DNA of 22,349 nucleotides from positions 1 to 22,349 of IMG/VR virus record IMGVR_UViG_3300010158_000348. One strand, given 5' to 3'. The position numbers and the translations under genes were made by a program. This DNA is from a virus. The notes beneath the pieces were generated by a model that saw only the letters and a list, made by a program, of their open reading frames with translations, did not search any database and had not been told where the DNA came from. Of this stretch, positions 2 to 17,699 are shown piece by piece. Within the stretch, counting starts at the first letter, position 1. The number at the start of each line of letters is the position of its first letter.

Positions 2-388
2 AAATTTATTGCAGAAGGTGCAACAAAAATGCAACCAAAAGGTCCTGCAGAAGTTGATGTTCCCGCAGCACTACGCAAGCAAAAGCGTCCAGGTCAAGCT
101 GCTGCACAAGCTGCTACTGACAAACGTAATGCAAGTTCTGGTGCCAAAGTTTGGTCCAGCAAACGCACCGAAGAAGGCAAAAAGGGTAAATGCTGCTGTG
201 ATAGAGACGGTGAAGATCAATGCCCAGTTCATGCAAAAATGGACGAAGTAGTCAACTTGAAAAAAGACCCCAACAGTGATCCAGGTGCCGAAGCACGACT
301 AGCTGCTTATCAAGCAAGACAGCCAAAATCGACAGTATATATGGATAAAAACAAACTCGTAAAAAACCCAGCGGTGGCTAAGAAATAA
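2..388 (+). CDS. Unrecognised small basic protein, 5' end outside window
   Basis: The reading frame is open to the left edge, so the true start probably lies outside the window; the first internal ATG is at 29 and gives 119 residues. The protein is rich in Lys, Ala and Gln, with no membrane segment. It has a Cys/His cluster in its middle (three consecutive Cys, then a CPVH about nine residues later) that could bind metal. It ends just before a strong terminator that separates it from gp17. Position before the large terminase would suit a small terminase subunit (gp16), but I see no sequence feature that proves it. Function not assigned. Confidence 0.55.
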   Translation, partial: KFIAEGATKMQPKGPAEVDVPAALRKQKRPGQAAAQAATDKRNASSGAKVWSSKRTEEGKKGKCCCDRDGEDQCPVHAKMDEVVNLKKDPNSDPGAEARLAAYQARQPKSTVYMDKNKLVKNPAVAKK

Positions 389-3791: not shown

Positions 3792-3835
3792 AATAATCAA
3801 ATAATTATTCCTGTATAGGTTGTAGTGATAAATAG

Positions 3836-3875
3836 AACTGTGTATACTTAATCGTATGCACAGTTTTTCTTTTTA
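3836..3875 (+). terminator. Rho-independent terminator
   Basis: An 11-bp stem (3836-3846 with 3855-3865, one G-U pair) encloses an 8-base loop and is followed by a T-rich tail of five T, C, five T. It separates the gp17 region from the gp32-uvsX-uvsY group. Confidence 0.85.
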
Positions 3876-6262: not shown

Positions 6263-6721
6263 ATGGCTCAATGGTATGCAAAGGTGAGCAAAGATATTTC
6301 TCATCTCCCGGCATGTATTGACTTTTATTACAACGAACTGGATAGTGCAAAAAGAGAAGTTAAAATTTATGGTAACATAGAAAAAGCTTCTGCAGCACTT
6401 CCAGGTATCGTTGAACAAAGATTTAATCAACTTCAAGAACTTGAAGCGGTATTAGAATATTTAAATATTGAATTACGACGCATTAGATCAAAATCTTTTA
6501 GAAAATATTTAGAGAATTATCAAAGAGCTCTAAGTAGCCGAGACGTTGAAAAATATGTTGAGGGCGAAGCAGATGTAGTTGATATGGAAAAAATTATTAA
6601 CGAATTTGCATTACTTAGAAATCAATGGCTAGGTATTATTAAAGCAATTGATCAAAAGCAGTGGCAAATAACTAATATTGTTAAATTGCGAACAGCTGGA
6701 TTAGAAGATGTCAGTATTTAA
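6263..6721 (+). CDS. uvsY: Recombination mediator UvsY
   Basis: Mediator that helps UvsX displace gp32 from single-stranded DNA. 152 residues, close to the T4 protein (137). The C-terminal half (YQRALSSRDVEKYVEGE, then LLRNQWLGIIKAIDQKQW and LRTAGLEDV) fits the UvsY pattern, including the short conserved 'LS..D' stretch and the long amphipathic helices that build the hexamer. The gene begins two bases after the acidic protein, with GAGGA at 6252-6256, and is followed by a terminator. Order after uvsX supports the call. Confidence 0.88.
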   Translation: MAQWYAKVSKDISHLPACIDFYYNELDSAKREVKIYGNIEKASAALPGIVEQRFNQLQELEAVLEYLNIELRRIRSKSFRKYLENYQRALSSRDVEKYVEGEADVVDMEKIINEFALLRNQWLGIIKAIDQKQWQITNIVKLRTAGLEDVSI

Positions 6722-6752
6722 AATAGGAGCTTGACAAGCTCTTATTTTTTTT
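6722..6752 (+). terminator. Rho-independent terminator overlapping a promoter
   Basis: An 11-bp stem (6722-6732 with 6736-6746, one G-U) with a 3-base loop and a run of eight T. The loop and its flanks are also the -35 box TTGACA of the next promoter, so one DNA segment ends the uvsY transcript and starts the next operon. Confidence 0.85.
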
Positions 6753-6759
6753 ATATAAT
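6731..6759 (+). promoter_or_regulatory. Consensus sigma-70 promoter, predicted leaderless
   Basis: TTGACA at 6731-6736, a 17-base spacer, and TATAAT at 6754-6759: both hexamers and the spacing are perfect. Only 5 bases separate TATAAT from the ATG at 6765, so transcription should begin at or within the start codon. This is expected to be an early promoter used by unmodified host RNA polymerase and would drive the long operon through 12560. Confidence 0.85.
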
Positions 6760-6764
6760 AGTTT

Positions 6765-7967
6765 ATGCATATTGAAGAATTAATTGACAGACTTGCAGGT
6801 AACGGAAAATATATATTCCAATCTCCTATTAATGTTTTTAGAGCCGATGCTACTATTATTTCTAGTTTATCGGATCAAATTCAACGAGGTAATTTTTATA
6901 CTGAAAAACAACAAACATTGGCAATTAGATTAGTATCTAAGTATGTCAAAGTTTTATCTACCGAATTAAAATATGATGTAAATGTTGATCTAGTAAATCC
7001 ACAATTTAAAAATCCTGCAAGAAAATTAAGTGGTGCTAAGAGTATACAACTTAAATCTTATGCAGACTCTAGTAAAAAAATTGTAGTTCAATTTCCATTT
7101 AATACAGAACTAGTTGAAGCATTTAGAGAATATAAGAAAACTATTTCAAGGTCAGAAGCTGCAGACATTAATTGGAATGCAGAAGACCGTGTGTGGATAT
7201 TTGGATATACTGAATCGAATATATCATATCTATATAAAATGCTCTCTAACGATTTTGAATTTGATAATGAGTTAGAAGCAACAGCTAAAGAAATTCAAAA
7301 AATTGAAGAAAATATAGAACAGTATGTTCCGATGATAGTTTATCAAAATGGACATTTTTCTTACAAAAATGTTATGAATCATGTTCCACAACCTAATTCA
7401 AATAATCTAATAGAAGTATTATTGCACGCAAGATCATGTGGTATTACCTGTTGGGACGAATCGATTGATATAGCTATATCTTCTTCTGAGGTAAGCAATT
7501 CAATTCAATTACTTATTAAAAATTCTCATTGTAATCCCATTACAATAGCCTCTAACAACTTAATAAGTATTCAAGATTTATTAAATTATTCTAAAAATAT
7601 TTTATTTGTAATTCCCGGTGGAACCGAATTAGATCATCTAAAATCTATTCATAACTTTCTCATTAATCAAAATATTTTAAACAGTCAACTGACAGTTATG
7701 TTTAGACTTGATAGTAGTTCTGGAAAACTGTGTAATGAATATATTAAAGAACATAAATTAAATACACCGGTCAGTGATGTTACTAAGTTTGTATTTGTTA
7801 GTGGTAAAATACCAAAACCATTAATTGAAACTGGAAAGAAATTTGATCTAGTTGTTCATTTTGGCACAAATTCTGCACATTACACATTGAAAAATTATAT
7901 TAAGAATCATCATAATGTTATTAGTATGAACCTAGATAACAAAAATAAGGAATTAGACTTTGGCTAA
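6765..7967 (+). CDS. 400-residue protein with HARP-like segment, upstream of UvsW
   Basis: Not firmly recognised. Residues about 106-160 (QFPFNTELVEAFREYKK, then INWNAEDRVWIFGYT and SYLYKML) resemble the HARP/SMARCAL1-type annealing-helicase accessory domain, in which a hydrophobic strand, a helix and a 'W....W.F' element follow each other. The C-terminal half has alternating strands and helices (NILFVIPGG, LTVMFRLDSSSGK, KFVFVSGK, FDLVVHFG) that look like a RecA-type alpha/beta fold, but I see no Walker A or DExx box, so it may be a degenerate helicase-like domain. It overlaps uvsW by 8 bases, suggesting coupled translation and a joint role. It has no Shine-Dalgarno site and a predicted leaderless start. 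Confidence 0.75.
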   Translation: MHIEELIDRLAGNGKYIFQSPINVFRADATIISSLSDQIQRGNFYTEKQQTLAIRLVSKYVKVLSTELKYDVNVDLVNPQFKNPARKLSGAKSIQLKSYADSSKKIVVQFPFNTELVEAFREYKKTISRSEAADINWNAEDRVWIFGYTESNISYLYKMLSNDFEFDNELEATAKEIQKIEENIEQYVPMIVYQNGHFSYKNVMNHVPQPNSNNLIEVLLHARSCGITCWDESIDIAISSSEVSNSIQLLIKNSHCNPITIASNNLISIQDLLNYSKNILFVIPGGTELDHLKSIHNFLINQNILNSQLTVMFRLDSSSGKLCNEYIKEHKLNTPVSDVTKFVFVSGKIPKPLIETGKKFDLVVHFGTNSAHYTLKNYIKNHHNVISMNLDNKNKELDFG

Positions 7968-10317: not shown

Positions 10318-10603
10318 TCTTAAACCAGGTGTAACTTTAATCTACGAAAAGGTAGATAATATTGTTTATTCTAGAGAAGCTGGATCCGATCCGTCTACTC
10401 GAATAGAAGTAGGACGAGATTACGATCCAAGAACAGGAGATGGCCGACCATTGCATGATCATATAAAAGATTCACAACTATGGGGAAATATTCATCGAGC
10501 AGCAAAAACTAATATTGCTTTGCAAAAAGCATTGGAACAATGTATAATAATATATCATCTTAGTAATCCCCCTAAGAAACCAATACAACATCATCCGGTA
10601 TAA
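10310..10603 (+). CDS. Conserved hypothetical protein, 97 residues
   Basis: Starts inside the last codons of the HNH-like gene (8-base overlap), consistent with translational coupling. It has a charged central segment (GRDYDPRTGDGRPLHDH) and a helical C-terminal part ending in Pro/His-rich residues. I do not recognise a domain. Its stop codon lies one base before the next start. Confidence 0.75.
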   Translation: MGNLKPGVTLIYEKVDNIVYSREAGSDPSTRIEVGRDYDPRTGDGRPLHDHIKDSQLWGNIHRAAKTNIALQKALEQCIIIYHLSNPPKKPIQHHPV

Positions 10604-10604
10604 T

Positions 10605-11069
10605 ATGGCAACAGCAAAACTTGATATTAAACGTGAGCTTGACGCAGTTGATACACGTAATTATAATTTTTATGATAATCTTACAATAGAAGAACAAAAG
10701 GCATTTAGCCCATTTGTTTTAATGAGATTTACTAGCAATGTAAAAGGTGATAGAGAAACACAGGAGTGGTTTGTTGAAATGACTAATGAACTAGTTAATA
10801 AAGATCATTGGACATTAAGTAAGAATCATAAGGCATTGCTCTGGAAATTGTTTGCTGGCACAGGTATTGGAACTAAATGTTTTCATCCTTATCTAGCAGC
10901 TGGAAAGAAAGATAAAGTTAATAAGATTGAAAAATTAATTGCAGAATTAAATCCTTCGATGAAAATATCTGAAGTAAAAATGCTAGCCGGCATGATGACT
11001 AAAGATGATATCAAAGAACTTTTTGATAAAATGGGCTTTGATAAAAAGCAACGAAAGGAATATGAATGA
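10605..11069 (+). CDS. Possible clamp-loader small subunit (gp62-like)
   Basis: 154 residues, largely helical. The layout resembles gp62 of aquatic T4-like phages: an N-terminal 'SPFVLMRF' block, a 'WFVEMTNELVNKDHW' helix, a central helix pair (KALLWKLFAGTGIG), and a C-terminal part with KISEVKMLAGMMTKDDIKEL, where gp62 has a similar '..A..mL..lt.eel..i'. gp62 works with gp44 to load the gp45 sliding clamp. Neither gp44 nor gp45 is in the window, so there is no context proof, and the match is by pattern only. It could also be an unrelated helical protein. It overlaps the next gene by ATGA. Confidence 0.4.
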   Translation: MATAKLDIKRELDAVDTRNYNFYDNLTIEEQKAFSPFVLMRFTSNVKGDRETQEWFVEMTNELVNKDHWTLSKNHKALLWKLFAGTGIGTKCFHPYLAAGKKDKVNKIEKLIAELNPSMKISEVKMLAGMMTKDDIKELFDKMGFDKKQRKEYE

Positions 11070-12560: not shown

Positions 12561-12924
12561 CATTTCTTATCAACTGTATTGACTTACGTTTAACTCTTTT
12601 TTCTGCAATTTCACTTAAATTAACAACTGGTCCAAATATAATATCAATATCTTTTGAATTAAATGTTTTAATAGTATATCTAAATTTCTGCATTTCGTTT
12701 AATAAAAAAATACTAATTGGAATTTTTCGATTGCTTTCCCACCACCATATTTCACCGGCTTCTATAAACATTTGTTTTTCTTCTTCGGTTTTTAATATAG
12801 AATAATCATAGATACTAGTTACATTAGCATCTAAGTTAATAATAATGCCCACGTATTCAATATCACTCGATTTTACACAGGTCATAAACGGGAAATTTTT
12901 TTGAAAGCTATTTGTTGTTGTCAT
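12541..12924 (-). CDS. Conserved hypothetical protein, 127 residues
   Basis: Start ATG at 12924 overlaps the stop of the SGNH-like gene (ATGA). The core has strand-like segments (IEYVGIIINLD, TSIYDYSILK) then a short Trp-rich stretch (IWWWESNRKIPISIFL) and a basic helical C-terminus. Similar proteins occur, from memory, in cyanophages, with no known function. The first 25 codons and upstream bases are duplicated at 13769-13846, so this gene is the complete copy of a partly duplicated sequence. Its 3' end overlaps the convergent polymerase-like gene. Confidence 0.75.
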   Translation of the reverse strand: MTTTNSFQKNFPFMTCVKSSDIEYVGIIINLDANVTSIYDYSILKTEEEKQMFIEAGEIWWWESNRKIPISIFLLNEMQKFRYTIKTFNSKDIDIIFGPVVNLSEIAEKRVKRKSIQLIRNVKKIRN

Positions 12925-13704: not shown

Positions 13705-13843
13705 AACCGTTCCGGGATTTTACTCTCCTGCAAACGGTAAGATATTTATATGTGGGAAATATATTTCTCACGTATTCGATATCACTTGATTTTACACAGG
13801 TCATAAACGGGAAATTTTTTTGAAAGCTATTTGTTGTTGTCAT
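13676..13843 (-). pseudogene. Truncated copy of the 127-residue gene
   Basis: The ATG at 13841-13843 and the next 24 codons reproduce the start of the gene at 12924 with only two silent base changes. After codon 25 the homology stops, and the frame runs on for 30 unrelated codons through a late promoter and into the tRNA before TGA at 13676. This is a broken gene fragment rather than a functional gene. Confidence 0.8.
13743..13750 (-). promoter_or_regulatory. Perfect T4 late promoter TATAAATA (minus strand)
   Basis: TATTTATA on the plus strand is the exact complement of the T4 late consensus. Reading leftwards, it precedes tRNA-Gly by about 38 bases and then the SGNH-like and hypothetical genes, so it probably drives the whole cassette. 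Confidence 0.65.
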
Positions 13844-13864: not shown

Positions 13865-14701
13865 ATGAAATTACCAGTCTATTTATATTCCAATTTGTTC
13901 GAAGTAATATTGGATCTGGACAATAATAACAGGATTAACCAAGTTATGTATCAACGCGACCTAAAACTACAAAAAGGTGTTAAAAATAAGGTTCAAATTC
14001 AATTTAAAAACAGCGATCAGAAACTTATCAATGTATCTACTAGCAGTTTTAAGTTTGTTTTGTTCGACACTGTAAATCAACGGAACCTTATTGAAAAAGT
14101 AGTAACTATTTTAGATGACGGCTCTACAAGAGCACTTCGCGGACTTGGAGAAGTAGTGTTTACAGAAAGCGATTTGCAAAACTGCGAAAGCGCCTACTAT
14201 AAAATGGGTGTAATGGCACTGGATACTGACGGCAGCTATGTTCCAACTTATGCTAATACCTATTACGGTGTTGGTGCTACTATCGAAGTTAGACATGATC
14301 TATATCCTACTCTAGTGCCAAGTCAAGAAACAAAAGTTTTTAGTATGTATTATAATGCAGATCAAAATGCGCTGCAATACGAATACTATACAGGTAATCT
14401 AAATGCATATCCTGAATTTAAATCAAATACCGCATTACACACAGCAGCAATATACATGACACGTTATAAAGGCAGAGTGCTTGTAGAAGGAACACTTGAA
14501 ACTAGTCCAACAACTTTTGGGCATTATGCTATTATTAAAGACACTACATATAACGGTTTTACCGGTATTGATTATTATAACTTTAATGGTATATTTTCCA
14601 AAATACGTATTCGTTATATACCCGAAAAAGAACCAGTTAGCCAATTGAATAATAATACGGCATTTGCCGGAACTGTAGACAAAGTGCTTTACAGAAGTTA
14701 A
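13865..14701 (+). CDS. Probable virion structural protein (baseplate or fibre-like)
   Basis: 278 residues, rich in Tyr, Asn and Thr and mostly beta, with no enzyme motif. After a short N-terminal segment, the part with KVQIQFKNSDQK, FKFVLFD, LGEVVFTESDLQ and YYKMGVMALD fits an immunoglobulin-like or BppU-type N-terminal fold found in phage baseplate and adaptor proteins. The C-terminal half (RVLVEGTLETSPTTFGHY, GIDYYNFNGIFSKIRIRY) is also strand-rich. A late-type promoter motif immediately upstream supports a virion role. It is followed after 9 bases by the primase gene, an unusual mixing of late and replication genes. Confidence 0.7.
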   Translation: MKLPVYLYSNLFEVILDLDNNNRINQVMYQRDLKLQKGVKNKVQIQFKNSDQKLINVSTSSFKFVLFDTVNQRNLIEKVVTILDDGSTRALRGLGEVVFTESDLQNCESAYYKMGVMALDTDGSYVPTYANTYYGVGATIEVRHDLYPTLVPSQETKVFSMYYNADQNALQYEYYTGNLNAYPEFKSNTALHTAAIYMTRYKGRVLVEGTLETSPTTFGHYAIIKDTTYNGFTGIDYYNFNGIFSKIRIRYIPEKEPVSQLNNNTAFAGTVDKVLYRS

Positions 14702-14710
14702 ACTATATGT

Positions 14711-15712
14711 ATGAATCTCATACAGGCAAGTTTACAATCAGTCCTACCGGCCAATAGAAAATCAACTAGTGGCGGTTGGGTAAGCTTCAATGCGGTATGT
14801 TGTTTGCATAGAAACGAAAGCGTTGATAAGAAAAAACGTGGCGGCGTTCTATTTAAAGAAAATGGTTTTACCTATAGTTGTTTCAACTGCGGATTTAAAG
14901 CAGGTTGGCAACCAGGAAAACTTTTTAGTAAAAACACTAAGAATCTTTTTCAATGGTTAGGAATGCCAACAGATGTAATTAATAAAATTACTCTTGAAGC
15001 ACTGCGAGAAAAAGATGCAATGCCTGTTGCTACTAAATTATTTACATTAGAGTTGCAAGATGTTGCGCTGCCCGATAATACATTATCCATAATAGACTGG
15101 ATCAATGAAGGATGTAACGATCCCGAGCTAGTTTTGTGTATTGAATATATATTAAGCAGAGGACTTACATTAGATGATTATAACTGGCATTGGTCAGCTA
15201 CTAACGGATATCGAGATAGGGTAATTATTCCGTTTTATAATCAGAAGCACATTGTTGGTTACACCGGAAGAAAAATTGTAGATGGTAAACCAAAATACTT
15301 AACTCATTCTCAAAATGGTTATGTATTCAATATTGATGCACAAACTCAAGACAGAAAATATGTTATAGTAGTTGAAGGACAGTTTGATGCTATTGCATCA
15401 GAAGGTGTTGCTATCATGCACAACGAACCTAGTGAAACTCAATGTTTTCGTATTAATTCTCTAGGTCGAGAAGTTATTGTAGTTCCTGATAGAGACAAAC
15501 CCGGAGCAAAAATGCTAGAAGCTGCTATCAATAATGGATGGAGTATGAGTTTGCCTCCTTGGGGTGATGATATCAAAGACGTAGCTAAAGCAGTCGAAGT
15601 TTATGGTAAAGCCTATACGCTAGCCACAATCTTACACTATCGAGAGTCTAATAAGATAAAAATAGAATTACAAAAGAAAAAATTAGAGAACCTCAATGAC
15701 AACAAAAAATAA
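14711..15712 (+). CDS. 61: DNA primase (gp61-like)
   Basis: Makes RNA primers for lagging-strand synthesis in complex with the gp41 helicase. 333 residues against 342 in T4. An N-terminal zinc-ribbon is seen as Cys30/Cys31-His33 and Cys57-x2-Cys60 (YSCFNCGF). The TOPRIM domain has Glu222 in VVEGQFDAIA and the Asp pair in VVPDRDKPGAK (Asp260, Asp262), the metal-binding acidic residues. The end overlaps gp41 by 17 bases, which fits stoichiometric production of the primosome. Confidence 0.92.
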   Translation: MNLIQASLQSVLPANRKSTSGGWVSFNAVCCLHRNESVDKKKRGGVLFKENGFTYSCFNCGFKAGWQPGKLFSKNTKNLFQWLGMPTDVINKITLEALREKDAMPVATKLFTLELQDVALPDNTLSIIDWINEGCNDPELVLCIEYILSRGLTLDDYNWHWSATNGYRDRVIIPFYNQKHIVGYTGRKIVDGKPKYLTHSQNGYVFNIDAQTQDRKYVIVVEGQFDAIASEGVAIMHNEPSETQCFRINSLGREVIVVPDRDKPGAKMLEAAINNGWSMSLPPWGDDIKDVAKAVEVYGKAYTLATILHYRESNKIKIELQKKKLENLNDNKK

Positions 15713-17156
15713 TACAGACTACAGTTATGACATACAAAAACTTTATTTAGAAATGTTTCTTTCGGATGCAGAAACATTTTGCCGATGCCAAAATATTTTT
15801 GATTCAGAAAACTTTGATCAACGATTAAGAGAGACAGCTACGTTTATTAACTCATATGTTGATCAATATAAGGTAATGCCAGAGACACAGATCATTAATG
15901 CACAATGTAAAATGGAGTTTCAACCAGTTACATTGCCTAAACAACACTATGATTGGTTAATGAACGATTTTGAAAGTTTTAGTAGACACAAATCATTAGA
16001 ACGAGCAATTTTAAAGTCAGCTGATCTACTTGAAAAGGGTGACTACGGTCCAGTTGAAAAAATGATCAAGGATGCTATTCAGATCAGTCTAAACAAGGAC
16101 ATGGGCACAGACTATTGGTTTGATCCTCGCGCTCGATTAATGAAACTTAAAGATAACAACGGACAAATTTCTACAGGATGGCCTAGTGTAGATAAAAAAC
16201 TTTATGGCGGATTTAAACGCGGCGAATTGAATATTTTTGCAGCAGCATCGGGTGGTGGTAAGTCATTATTCCTTGCTAACTTGGGTGTAAACTTTGCACT
16301 TGCAGGACTAAATGTAATCTACTTTACATTTGAGCTTTCAGAAGAACTGGTAGGTATGCGTGTGGATAGTATGGTGACAGGAGTTACTACTAGAGACATC
16401 TTTAAGCAGTTAGATGATGTTGAAATGAAAGTCAAACTCACAGGGAAGAGGGCTGGAGGAATGCAGATAAAATACCTGCCTTCTGGTAAGAATTGTAACG
16501 ATTTAAGGTCATATTTGAAGGAATATGAAGTCAAAACAGGCAAAAAACCTGACATTATTTTAGTGGACTACTTAGACCTTATGATGCCTCTTTCTATTAA
16601 AATTAGTCCGTCGGATTTGTTTATTAAAGACAAATATGTTTCAGAAGAACTGCGTAACTTTGCTATGGAGAATCAATCAGTTGTAGTTACCGCTAGTCAA
16701 TTAAATCGTAGTGCAGTTGAAGAAATTGAGTTTGATCACAGTCATATCTCAGGTGGTTTAAGTAAGATTCAAACGGCTGATAATGTAATTGGTATCTTTA
16801 CCAGTCGTGCAATGAAAGAACGTGGGCGCTATCAAATTCAGTTTATGAAAACACGTAGTTCAAGTGGTGTTGGACAAAAGGTTGATTTAGAGTTTAATGT
16901 AGATACACTGCGTATTACTGATCTAGGAGAGGAAGAAGAAACTAGTTTTAACAGTCAACGAACAAGTTCTACCACTGCTAACATTGTTCATCAATTTAAG
17001 AAAACTAGTTCAGTAAAAGAAACAGTCAATCAAGATACTGGAGAAATTAGACCTAGTGATCCTACGCAAGGAATATCTATAGGTAAAGTAAAAGCAACAA
17101 CTGATTCTAGTCGTATTCGTGCCATGTTGGCAAATATGAATACTGAAAAAGATTGA
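15696..17156 (+). CDS. 41: Replicative DNA helicase (gp41-like, DnaB family)
   Basis: Hexameric 5'-3' helicase moving on the lagging strand, partner of gp61. 486 residues (T4: 475). An N-terminal helical domain is followed by the RecA-like motor: Walker A ASGGGKS at 184-190, catalytic Glu in TFELSEE near 213, Walker B IILVDYLDLM with Asp291, the polarity motif TASQLNR at 332-338, and HISGGLSKIQTADNVI. The C-terminal tail is Ser/Thr-rich with a basic end (SSRIRAMLANM). It overlaps the primase gene and its last codons contain the -35 box of the next promoter. Confidence 0.94.
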   Translation: MTTKNNTDYSYDIQKLYLEMFLSDAETFCRCQNIFDSENFDQRLRETATFINSYVDQYKVMPETQIINAQCKMEFQPVTLPKQHYDWLMNDFESFSRHKSLERAILKSADLLEKGDYGPVEKMIKDAIQISLNKDMGTDYWFDPRARLMKLKDNNGQISTGWPSVDKKLYGGFKRGELNIFAAASGGGKSLFLANLGVNFALAGLNVIYFTFELSEELVGMRVDSMVTGVTTRDIFKQLDDVEMKVKLTGKRAGGMQIKYLPSGKNCNDLRSYLKEYEVKTGKKPDIILVDYLDLMMPLSIKISPSDLFIKDKYVSEELRNFAMENQSVVVTASQLNRSAVEEIEFDHSHISGGLSKIQTADNVIGIFTSRAMKERGRYQIQFMKTRSSSGVGQKVDLEFNVDTLRITDLGEEEETSFNSQRTSSTTANIVHQFKKTSSVKETVNQDTGEIRPSDPTQGISIGKVKATTDSSRIRAMLANMNTEKD

Positions 17157-17181
17157 CATTATATAAAGATAATATTATAAT
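17153..17181 (+). promoter_or_regulatory. Consensus sigma-70 promoter, predicted leaderless
   Basis: TTGACA at 17153-17158 overlaps the gp41 stop codon; after a 17-base spacer TATAAT lies at 17176-17181. As in the promoter at 6731, exactly 5 bases separate TATAAT from the ATG (17187), so the transcript should begin at the start codon. Confidence 0.85.
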
Positions 17182-17186
17182 ATAGT

Positions 17187-17699
17187 ATGACTAACAAAAC
17201 ATTTTATTTAGATATGGACGGAGTAGTAGCAGATTGGGCAGAAGGTGCTGCTATTATTGTAGGATATCACATGACAGATCCAAATGCATATTATCCTCCA
17301 GAAGATTGGGAAAAAGTTAAGCAGCATCAACGAATGTTCCTTGATCTTCCGCTGATGCCAAAAGCTCATCAAATGGTTAATCTTGCAAGACGATTTCGAG
17401 ACGAGTTAGGATACAATTTAATATTCCTTACAGCAGTTCCTCACTACAATGATATTCATTGGGCATTTTGGGACAAATGTTTATGGGCACAAAAGCACTT
17501 TTCTGATATACCAGTGCATTTTGGTCCTTACTCGGGCGACAAACAGAAACACTGTATACCCGGTGATATTCTAGTTGATGATCGTCCCGACAACTGCAAA
17601 CATTGGAGAGATGCCGGTGGACTTACTATAAATGTAACTGCTGACTATGATCTTGCATTGACTCAACTACAAGACTTGTTTGATAAAAGTTCAGTATAA
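17187..17699 (+). CDS. HAD-family 5'(3')-deoxyribonucleotidase-like protein
   Basis: 170 residues. Motif I is LDMDGVVADW with Asp9 as predicted nucleophile and Asp11 as acid/base; motif II is the Thr of FLTAVP (Thr82); a Lys near 119 (GDKQKH) suits motif III; motif IV is ILVDDRPDNC with Asp131 and Asp132. This is the pattern of 5' nucleotidases of the NT5C type, which remove phosphate from (deoxy)nucleoside monophosphates. In a phage this would adjust nucleotide pools during takeover of host DNA. It has no Shine-Dalgarno site; a strong promoter abuts the start. Its 3' end overlaps a convergent small ORF by 9 bases. Confidence 0.85.
   Translation: MTNKTFYLDMDGVVADWAEGAAIIVGYHMTDPNAYYPPEDWEKVKQHQRMFLDLPLMPKAHQMVNLARRFRDELGYNLIFLTAVPHYNDIHWAFWDKCLWAQKHFSDIPVHFGPYSGDKQKHCIPGDILVDDRPDNCKHWRDAGGLTINVTADYDLALTQLQDLFDKSSV

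Follow-up and report, generated by a model that had tools for sequence, protein, structure and literature searches.

Two promoters abut start codons in a jumbo-type phage fragment

A perfect sigma-70 promoter lying directly against a start codon raises the question of whether the gene behind it is read from an mRNA without a leader. This question was addressed in the window, the whole stretch of DNA analysed here, a virus record of 22,349 bases whose gene content marks it as a genome fragment from a jumbo-type phage related to T4. Its genes include those for terminase, ssDNA-binding protein, UvsX, UvsY, UvsW-type helicase, primase and DnaB-type helicase, and the best matches of UvsX were ~58-67% identical and were found in phages of ~340-490 kb. 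The gene of interest, predicted to be leaderless, has 400 codons (6765-7967) and lies on the plus strand between the UvsW-type helicase gene and uvsY, an open reading frame on the same strand encoding a UvsY-like recombination mediator (6263-6721; PHROG phrog_231, E 4e-18). The 400-residue protein had no Pfam or PHROG match, and its predicted fold was of middling confidence and had no PDB match at E <= 0.001. The C-terminal half of this protein is strongly conserved.

The arrangement TTGACA-17-TATAAT-5-ATG that an earlier note had described at 6731-6767 was confirmed base for base. The -35 hexamer TTGACA (6731-6736) and the -10 hexamer TATAAT (6754-6759) agree with the sigma-70 consensus at 12/12 positions with a spacer of 17 nt, and five bases (AGTTT) separate the -10 from the ATG (6765-6767). 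A second site with the identical five-base gap, claimed in the same note, was also found: TTGACA (17153-17158), 17 nt, TATAAT (17176-17181) and ATAGT precede the ATG at 17187 of a predicted leaderless gene of 170 codons for an NT5C-like 5'(3')-deoxyribonucleotidase (17187-17699; PF06941, phrog_2643). At this site, the stop codon of a helicase gene (TGA, 17154-17156) falls within the -35. Perfect TTGACA-15..19-TATAAT matches in the window numbered two, compared with 0.08 expected from dinucleotide shuffles, none of which contained two perfect promoters. A third, weaker promoter (TAGACA, 14676-14681; 17 nt; TAAACT, 14699-14704) overlaps the 3' end of the gene upstream of primase and ends 6 nt from the ATG at 14711 of the T4 gp61-type DNA primase gene (14711-15712; phrog_47, E 2e-33). 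All three promoters and the genes behind them are on the plus strand.

Neither perfect promoter is followed by a Shine-Dalgarno (SD) site, as had been noted before for the first. The energy of the duplex with the anti-SD sequence was +1.7 and +1.8 kcal/mol at ATG 6765 and ATG 17187, respectively, compared with -6.1 kcal/mol for the ssDNA-binding protein gene and -7.3 kcal/mol for the uvsX gene (SD sequence AGGAG) of the same window.

Two further features of the window were recorded. The gene at 10605 has a TATAAT abutting its ATG (10599-10607) with a spacer of zero, so that a promoter there would initiate within the gene. Two minus-strand neighbours (12843-12924 and 13762-13843) are open reading frames that share their first 25-odd residues (MTTTNSFQKNFPFMTCVKSSDIEYV), which suggests duplication of a 5' segment or else a scar left by recombination.

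A predicted terminator is fused to the first promoter

The more unusual part of the first site is not the leaderless promoter but its overlap with a terminator, which the earlier note overlooked. A terminator scan and fold energies identified an intrinsic terminator hairpin at 6720-6748 on the plus strand (-12.8 kcal/mol, z -5.0), with a stem of 13 bp (AAAATAGGAGCTT, loop GAC, AAGCTCTTATTTT) and a tract of eight T residues (6745-6752). The hairpin starts within the uvsY stop codon (6719-6721), and the stem, the 3-nt loop, the T-rich tail and the overlap with this stop codon are together those of an intrinsic terminator. In the fused layout, the -35 is centred on the hairpin loop and reaches across it, the 3' arm and the T-run double as the spacer of the promoter, and the -10 comes immediately after. 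Since the stem has few G-C pairs, termination may be partial. The second site at 17153 had no terminator hairpin (fold z 0.4). Elsewhere in the window, a strong hairpin resembling a terminator, with a stem of 14 bp, was seen at 3834-3867, upstream of the ssDNA-binding protein gene.

The same locus was compared in relatives of the 400-residue protein drawn from viral contigs. The complete fused element was kept in three of them (L001, L002 and L007; 61-64% protein identity), each with a gap of 6 nt between the -10 and the ATG. Two others, L004 and L005, had neither terminator nor promoter here, and their uvsY stop codon overlapped the same ATG (TATAATG). In five relatives, conservation of the N-terminus of the protein begins at M1, and the start codon is therefore correct. 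The cultured jumbo phages GAP32, XbC2 and Munch carry a terminator at the same position after uvsY, annotated as such in Munch. This terminator resembles that of the window in position and hairpin size, but it is an ordinary one, with a different loop and no promoter in the hairpin, and in XbC2 and Munch the gene that follows has an SD site, unlike that of the window. The anatomy of the element and its conservation are thus established by comparison.

Distances between promoter and start codon fall into two classes

Promoters with no more than one mismatch were collected from a clade of related contigs (G004, G007-G009, G013-G016 and others), and their gaps were measured from the -10 to the ATG or GTG that opens an open reading frame of 40 or more codons. 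Gaps of 5, 6 and 7 nt were found 7, 25 and 6 times (38 in total), compared with ~1.7 expected at each distance (~5), counts that are slightly inflated because G009 and G013 are among the few contigs that share sequence. The distribution was bimodal: gaps either measured 5-7 nt, with a mode of 6 nt, or were spread broadly over ~20-35 nt with a ribosome site, and none measured 10-14 nt. The 5-nt gap of the window is one base below the usual 6 nt of its relatives. In an arbitrary sample of viral contigs, 14 and 9 gaps of 6 and 7 nt were counted, with ~0.85 expected for each, an excess indicating that the leaderless class extends past this clade. The start codons at 5-7 nt comprised 45 ATG and 1 GTG.

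The promoter near the ATG of the deoxyribonucleotidase gene in the window has counterparts 6-7 nt from the ATG of the homologues in G008, G014 and G016. Two other families were leaderless by geometry, one DnaJ-like (G004, G014 and G015) and one of proteins that start with a PPPF motif (G014, G015 and G016). In all three families, the geometry was present despite unlike upstream sequence between genomes. As judged by these comparisons, the leaderless geometry is a conserved class, one of two leader classes that they establish.

In one contig of the clade, G004 (IMGVR_UViG_3300013094_000017), perfect promoters were clustered at 221-232 kb, with SD sites and a leader nearly constant at 30 nt (gcacttacactaacacaacggagaaacaaaATG); the cluster is apparently an early region that has a conserved leader of its own. 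The earlier note had called the leaderless genes of the window early genes. This label found no support, as the genes have replication, recombination and nucleotide functions and the early-looking cluster of G004 uses SD leaders of ~30 nt. Nothing in the tests made supported the further suggestion that leaderless genes are favoured by a change in ribosomes or initiation factors following infection.

Among the leadered promoters of the clade, a pyrimidine was found at position 6 after the -10 in 83% and an A at position 7 in 71%. The A at position 7 marks the likely start base, and a gap of 6 nt therefore places the A of the ATG there. A preference for a pyrimidine at -1, just ahead of the ATG, was not confined to the leaderless class. 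The proposal that transcription begins at the A of the ATG is supported in that the start predicted from leadered promoters lands on this base; it fits the window itself less exactly, where, with a gap of 5 nt, the A falls at position 6, one short of the preferred position 7.

With this gap, the preferred start would be the T of the ATG, as might be expected if the promoter were strong but the gene not leaderless, the 5' end lying upstream or the true start codon downstream, and the gap without meaning for translation. We consider this unlikely. Whether or not they carry the promoter, relatives share this ATG as the homologous start, and a search for a downstream start found no in-frame ATG within well over 100 codons. 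In addition, the sharp peak at 5-7 nt, the empty interval at 10-14 nt and the near-exclusive use of ATG are unexpected for a neutral gap. Collectively, these comparisons argue strongly for leaderless initiation at these genes. The 5-7 nt peaks and the predicted start base, together with the codon conservation in the primase -35 described below, likewise point to the deliberate leaderless design that had been proposed before, although with no place in it for the overlapping terminator.

The fused element recurs in other phages and its stem covaries

Two further fused elements were found in G004 (38839 and 46432), with differing stems and 6-nt gaps, and one in G015 (ATG at 217363), also with a 6-nt gap. 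A promoter-based scan with a fixed 3' arm returned 59 unique leaderless sites, 26 of which had a stem of at least 6 bp around the -35 and none a stem of exactly 5. When viral contigs were searched with a seed representing the hairpin only (AGGGYC-TTGACA-RRCCCT), at least 120 stretches matched, compared with a single match for a reversed-loop control, and 86 unique copies were present among the matches listed. Among these listed copies, a TATAAT with at most one mismatch stood at exactly 17 nt in 82/86, against a background of 0.9%, and a start codon followed 5-6 nt away in 31 of the 82. The remaining fused elements among the matches listed were mostly leadered, often with SD sites; more than half of all the fused elements listed drive genes with a leader. 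The genes downstream, again among the matches listed, belonged to ~25 protein families, and the type of leader was mostly constant within a family.

The stem pair at positions 7 and 26, which was not part of the seed, was paired in 60/63 copies compared with 34 in shuffles, and A-T, G-C, T-A and C-G pairs all occurred. By this measure, the unseeded stem positions covary in the wider family, and covariation of the stem is established by comparison. Inverted repeats at -35 boxes are also classic operators, and the dyad might bind a repressor or activator over the -35 instead of terminating transcription; stems that differ by site in G004 and G015 would then allow for several regulators in one phage. 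This reading appears quite improbable, since pairing is kept while the sequence of the stem varies, the T-run lies 3' of the stem only, and GAP32, XbC2 and Munch have ordinary terminators after uvsY. On these grounds the operator reading was disfavoured.

Within the arbitrary viral sample, none of the 24 leaderless promoters had a hairpin at the -35 (0/24), and terminator fusion is therefore unnecessary for the leaderless class. The same terminator-loop promoter was found in a small ssDNA phage, gokushovirus KT264799 (L451, 3905-3950), with an SD leader before VP5, and the element thus reaches beyond tailed phages. This gokushovirus and cyanophage RB11-B, which has a degenerate element, were the nearest cultured cases; the exact fused element with a leaderless ATG was not found in a cultured phage among the records scanned. 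Perfect TTGACA-17-TATAMT-5..7-ATG was absent from S-CRM01, S-CREM1 and RB49, and blastn of plasmids for the fused element returned nothing convincing.

The primase promoter is conserved at a fixed distance from the start codon

The promoter of the primase gene was compared in the window and 29 relatives (30 loci). The upstream gene held the -35 in its final codons, and its stop codon was covered by the -10. The Asp codon that gives the GAC of the -35 was GAC in 29/30 loci. GAC was used at 174/563 (31%) of the other Asp codons of the same upstream genes, in which GAT is usual, a comparison that yields no formal probability because the sequences are kin.

The upstream stop codon was 8-9 nt from the primase start in 29/30 loci, as would be expected if the fixed gap reflected translational coupling or genome compaction, with the promoters incidental. 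This explanation is very unlikely. In L131, the sole locus with GAT, the stop codon lies 35 nt before the start, with a new TTGACA-17-TATTAT-6-ATG in the interval; translational coupling at the primase gene was rejected on this locus. Coupling also leaves the GAC of the other 29 loci unexplained, and at ATG 6765 the uvsY stop codon is 43 nt upstream, with the terminator in between. As far as comparison can tell, the primase pattern is explained by a conserved promoter at a fixed distance from the start codon, and conservation of this sister site is established at the level of DNA.

In Pseudomonas phage PA5oct (L202, MK797984, 145884), the annotated GTG of the primase abuts the -10, and the next GTG, 6 nt on, completes TTGACA-17-TATAAT-6-GTG. 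The annotated start is probably 6 nt too early, with the downstream GTG as the true start. A second gene of this phage, EST35_0240, has a perfect promoter with a 7-nt gap (TTGACA-17-TATAAT-7-ATG) to its annotated ATG at 158242 and is a cultured-phage candidate for the class.

Weak promoter-like words are common in the window (99 found, 77 expected), as a chance placement of such words near start codons in an AT-rich phage genome would predict, but the count of perfect matches, the conservation in relatives and the reversed-loop control make chance a negligible explanation.

A proposed gene boundary downstream of uvsY

The reading that we regard as highly probable is that a fused terminator-promoter divides uvsY from the next gene, which would be served by a leaderless mRNA. 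As RNA, 6720-6752 would fold into a hairpin with a U-tract and terminate transcripts that come in from uvsX and uvsY. Read as DNA, these bases would provide the -35, over the loop, and the spacer, made of the 3' arm and the T-tract, of a strong host sigma-70 promoter. RNA polymerase would then initiate on, or within one base of, the A of ATG 6765, and the downstream gene would be read from a leaderless mRNA independently of an SD site, by 70S initiation on the 5'-terminal AUG. Termination, promoter activity, the start at the A and 70S initiation are all steps that we infer from sequence. Since ATG 6765 has no SD site, read-through transcripts should be poorly translated and expression should depend on the gene's own promoter; the fusion would insulate the gene from read-through. 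Counting against this fused model are the 5-nt gap of the window, the scarcity of G-C pairs in the stem, the leaderless promoters that lack a -35 hairpin, the leaders behind more than half of the fused elements, and the absence of both promoter and terminator from this locus in L004 and L005. A more speculative extension, which we think unlikely, is that polymerase terminating in the U-tract is released over the overlapping -10 and re-initiates there, which would tie leaderless output to traffic over the upstream gene in many unrelated phages.

If the fused model is correct, a phage element of ~45 bp holds an RNA terminator and a sigma-70 promoter in one DNA sequence and often yields an mRNA that begins at AUG. 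In uncultured phages, such elements would be searchable markers of true start codons and of the limits between genes, and start-codon calls would be affected, as is probably the case for the PA5oct primase. They would also be natural test pieces for the fit between sigma, terminators and leaderless 70S initiation, and a direct route to asking whether an overlapping promoter reuses the polymerase that has just terminated.

Comparison with known systems

The cI mRNA of phage lambda, transcribed from PRM, is a leaderless phage mRNA made from a sigma-70 promoter. Unlike the window promoter, PRM is a regulated prophage promoter that is controlled by operators and has no terminator fusion. More generally, leaderless phage mRNAs are known (PMC5312081), and leaderless SigA promoters have been predicted in Cluster O mycobacteriophages (PMC4351075). 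The latter concern other hosts and phages, and the available portion of that report describes no terminator fused to a -35. The literature searched, coverage of which was partial, contained no description of a leaderless gene driven from a -35 that lies within a terminator loop, and we claim no priority; given its recurrence in many unrelated environmental phages, the fused element seems to be a genuine form of viral gene punctuation that has been little described so far.

Composite promoter-terminator cassettes called PeSLs (promoter-early stem-loops) occur in T4-like phages such as RB49 (Arbiol 2010; Comeau 2014, cited in PMC4503421). Like the window element, they join a strong sigma-70 promoter to an intrinsic terminator and stand between the genes of phages related to T4. 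In RB49 (1-50000), however, any terminator paired with a promoter stands apart from it, stopping 13-17 nt short of the -35, and the genes have SD leaders of ~30 nt, whereas in the window the -35 sits within the loop of the terminator, the spacer consists of the 3' arm and U-tract, and there is no leader. The window element also lies between core recombination genes, unlike the RB49 cassettes. A further mark of PeSLs is multiple near-identical copies that mediate recombination of ORFan genes; copies of the fused element numbered one in the window and two, unlike each other, in G004. Direct membership was rejected because the separate terminator, promoter and SD leader of RB49 are missing, although the strong promoter and terminator stem-loop that mark a PeSL are both present. 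The window element would thus appear to act like a compact PeSL in which overlap is complete and the leader is gone, a variant of the composite terminator/promoter cassettes.
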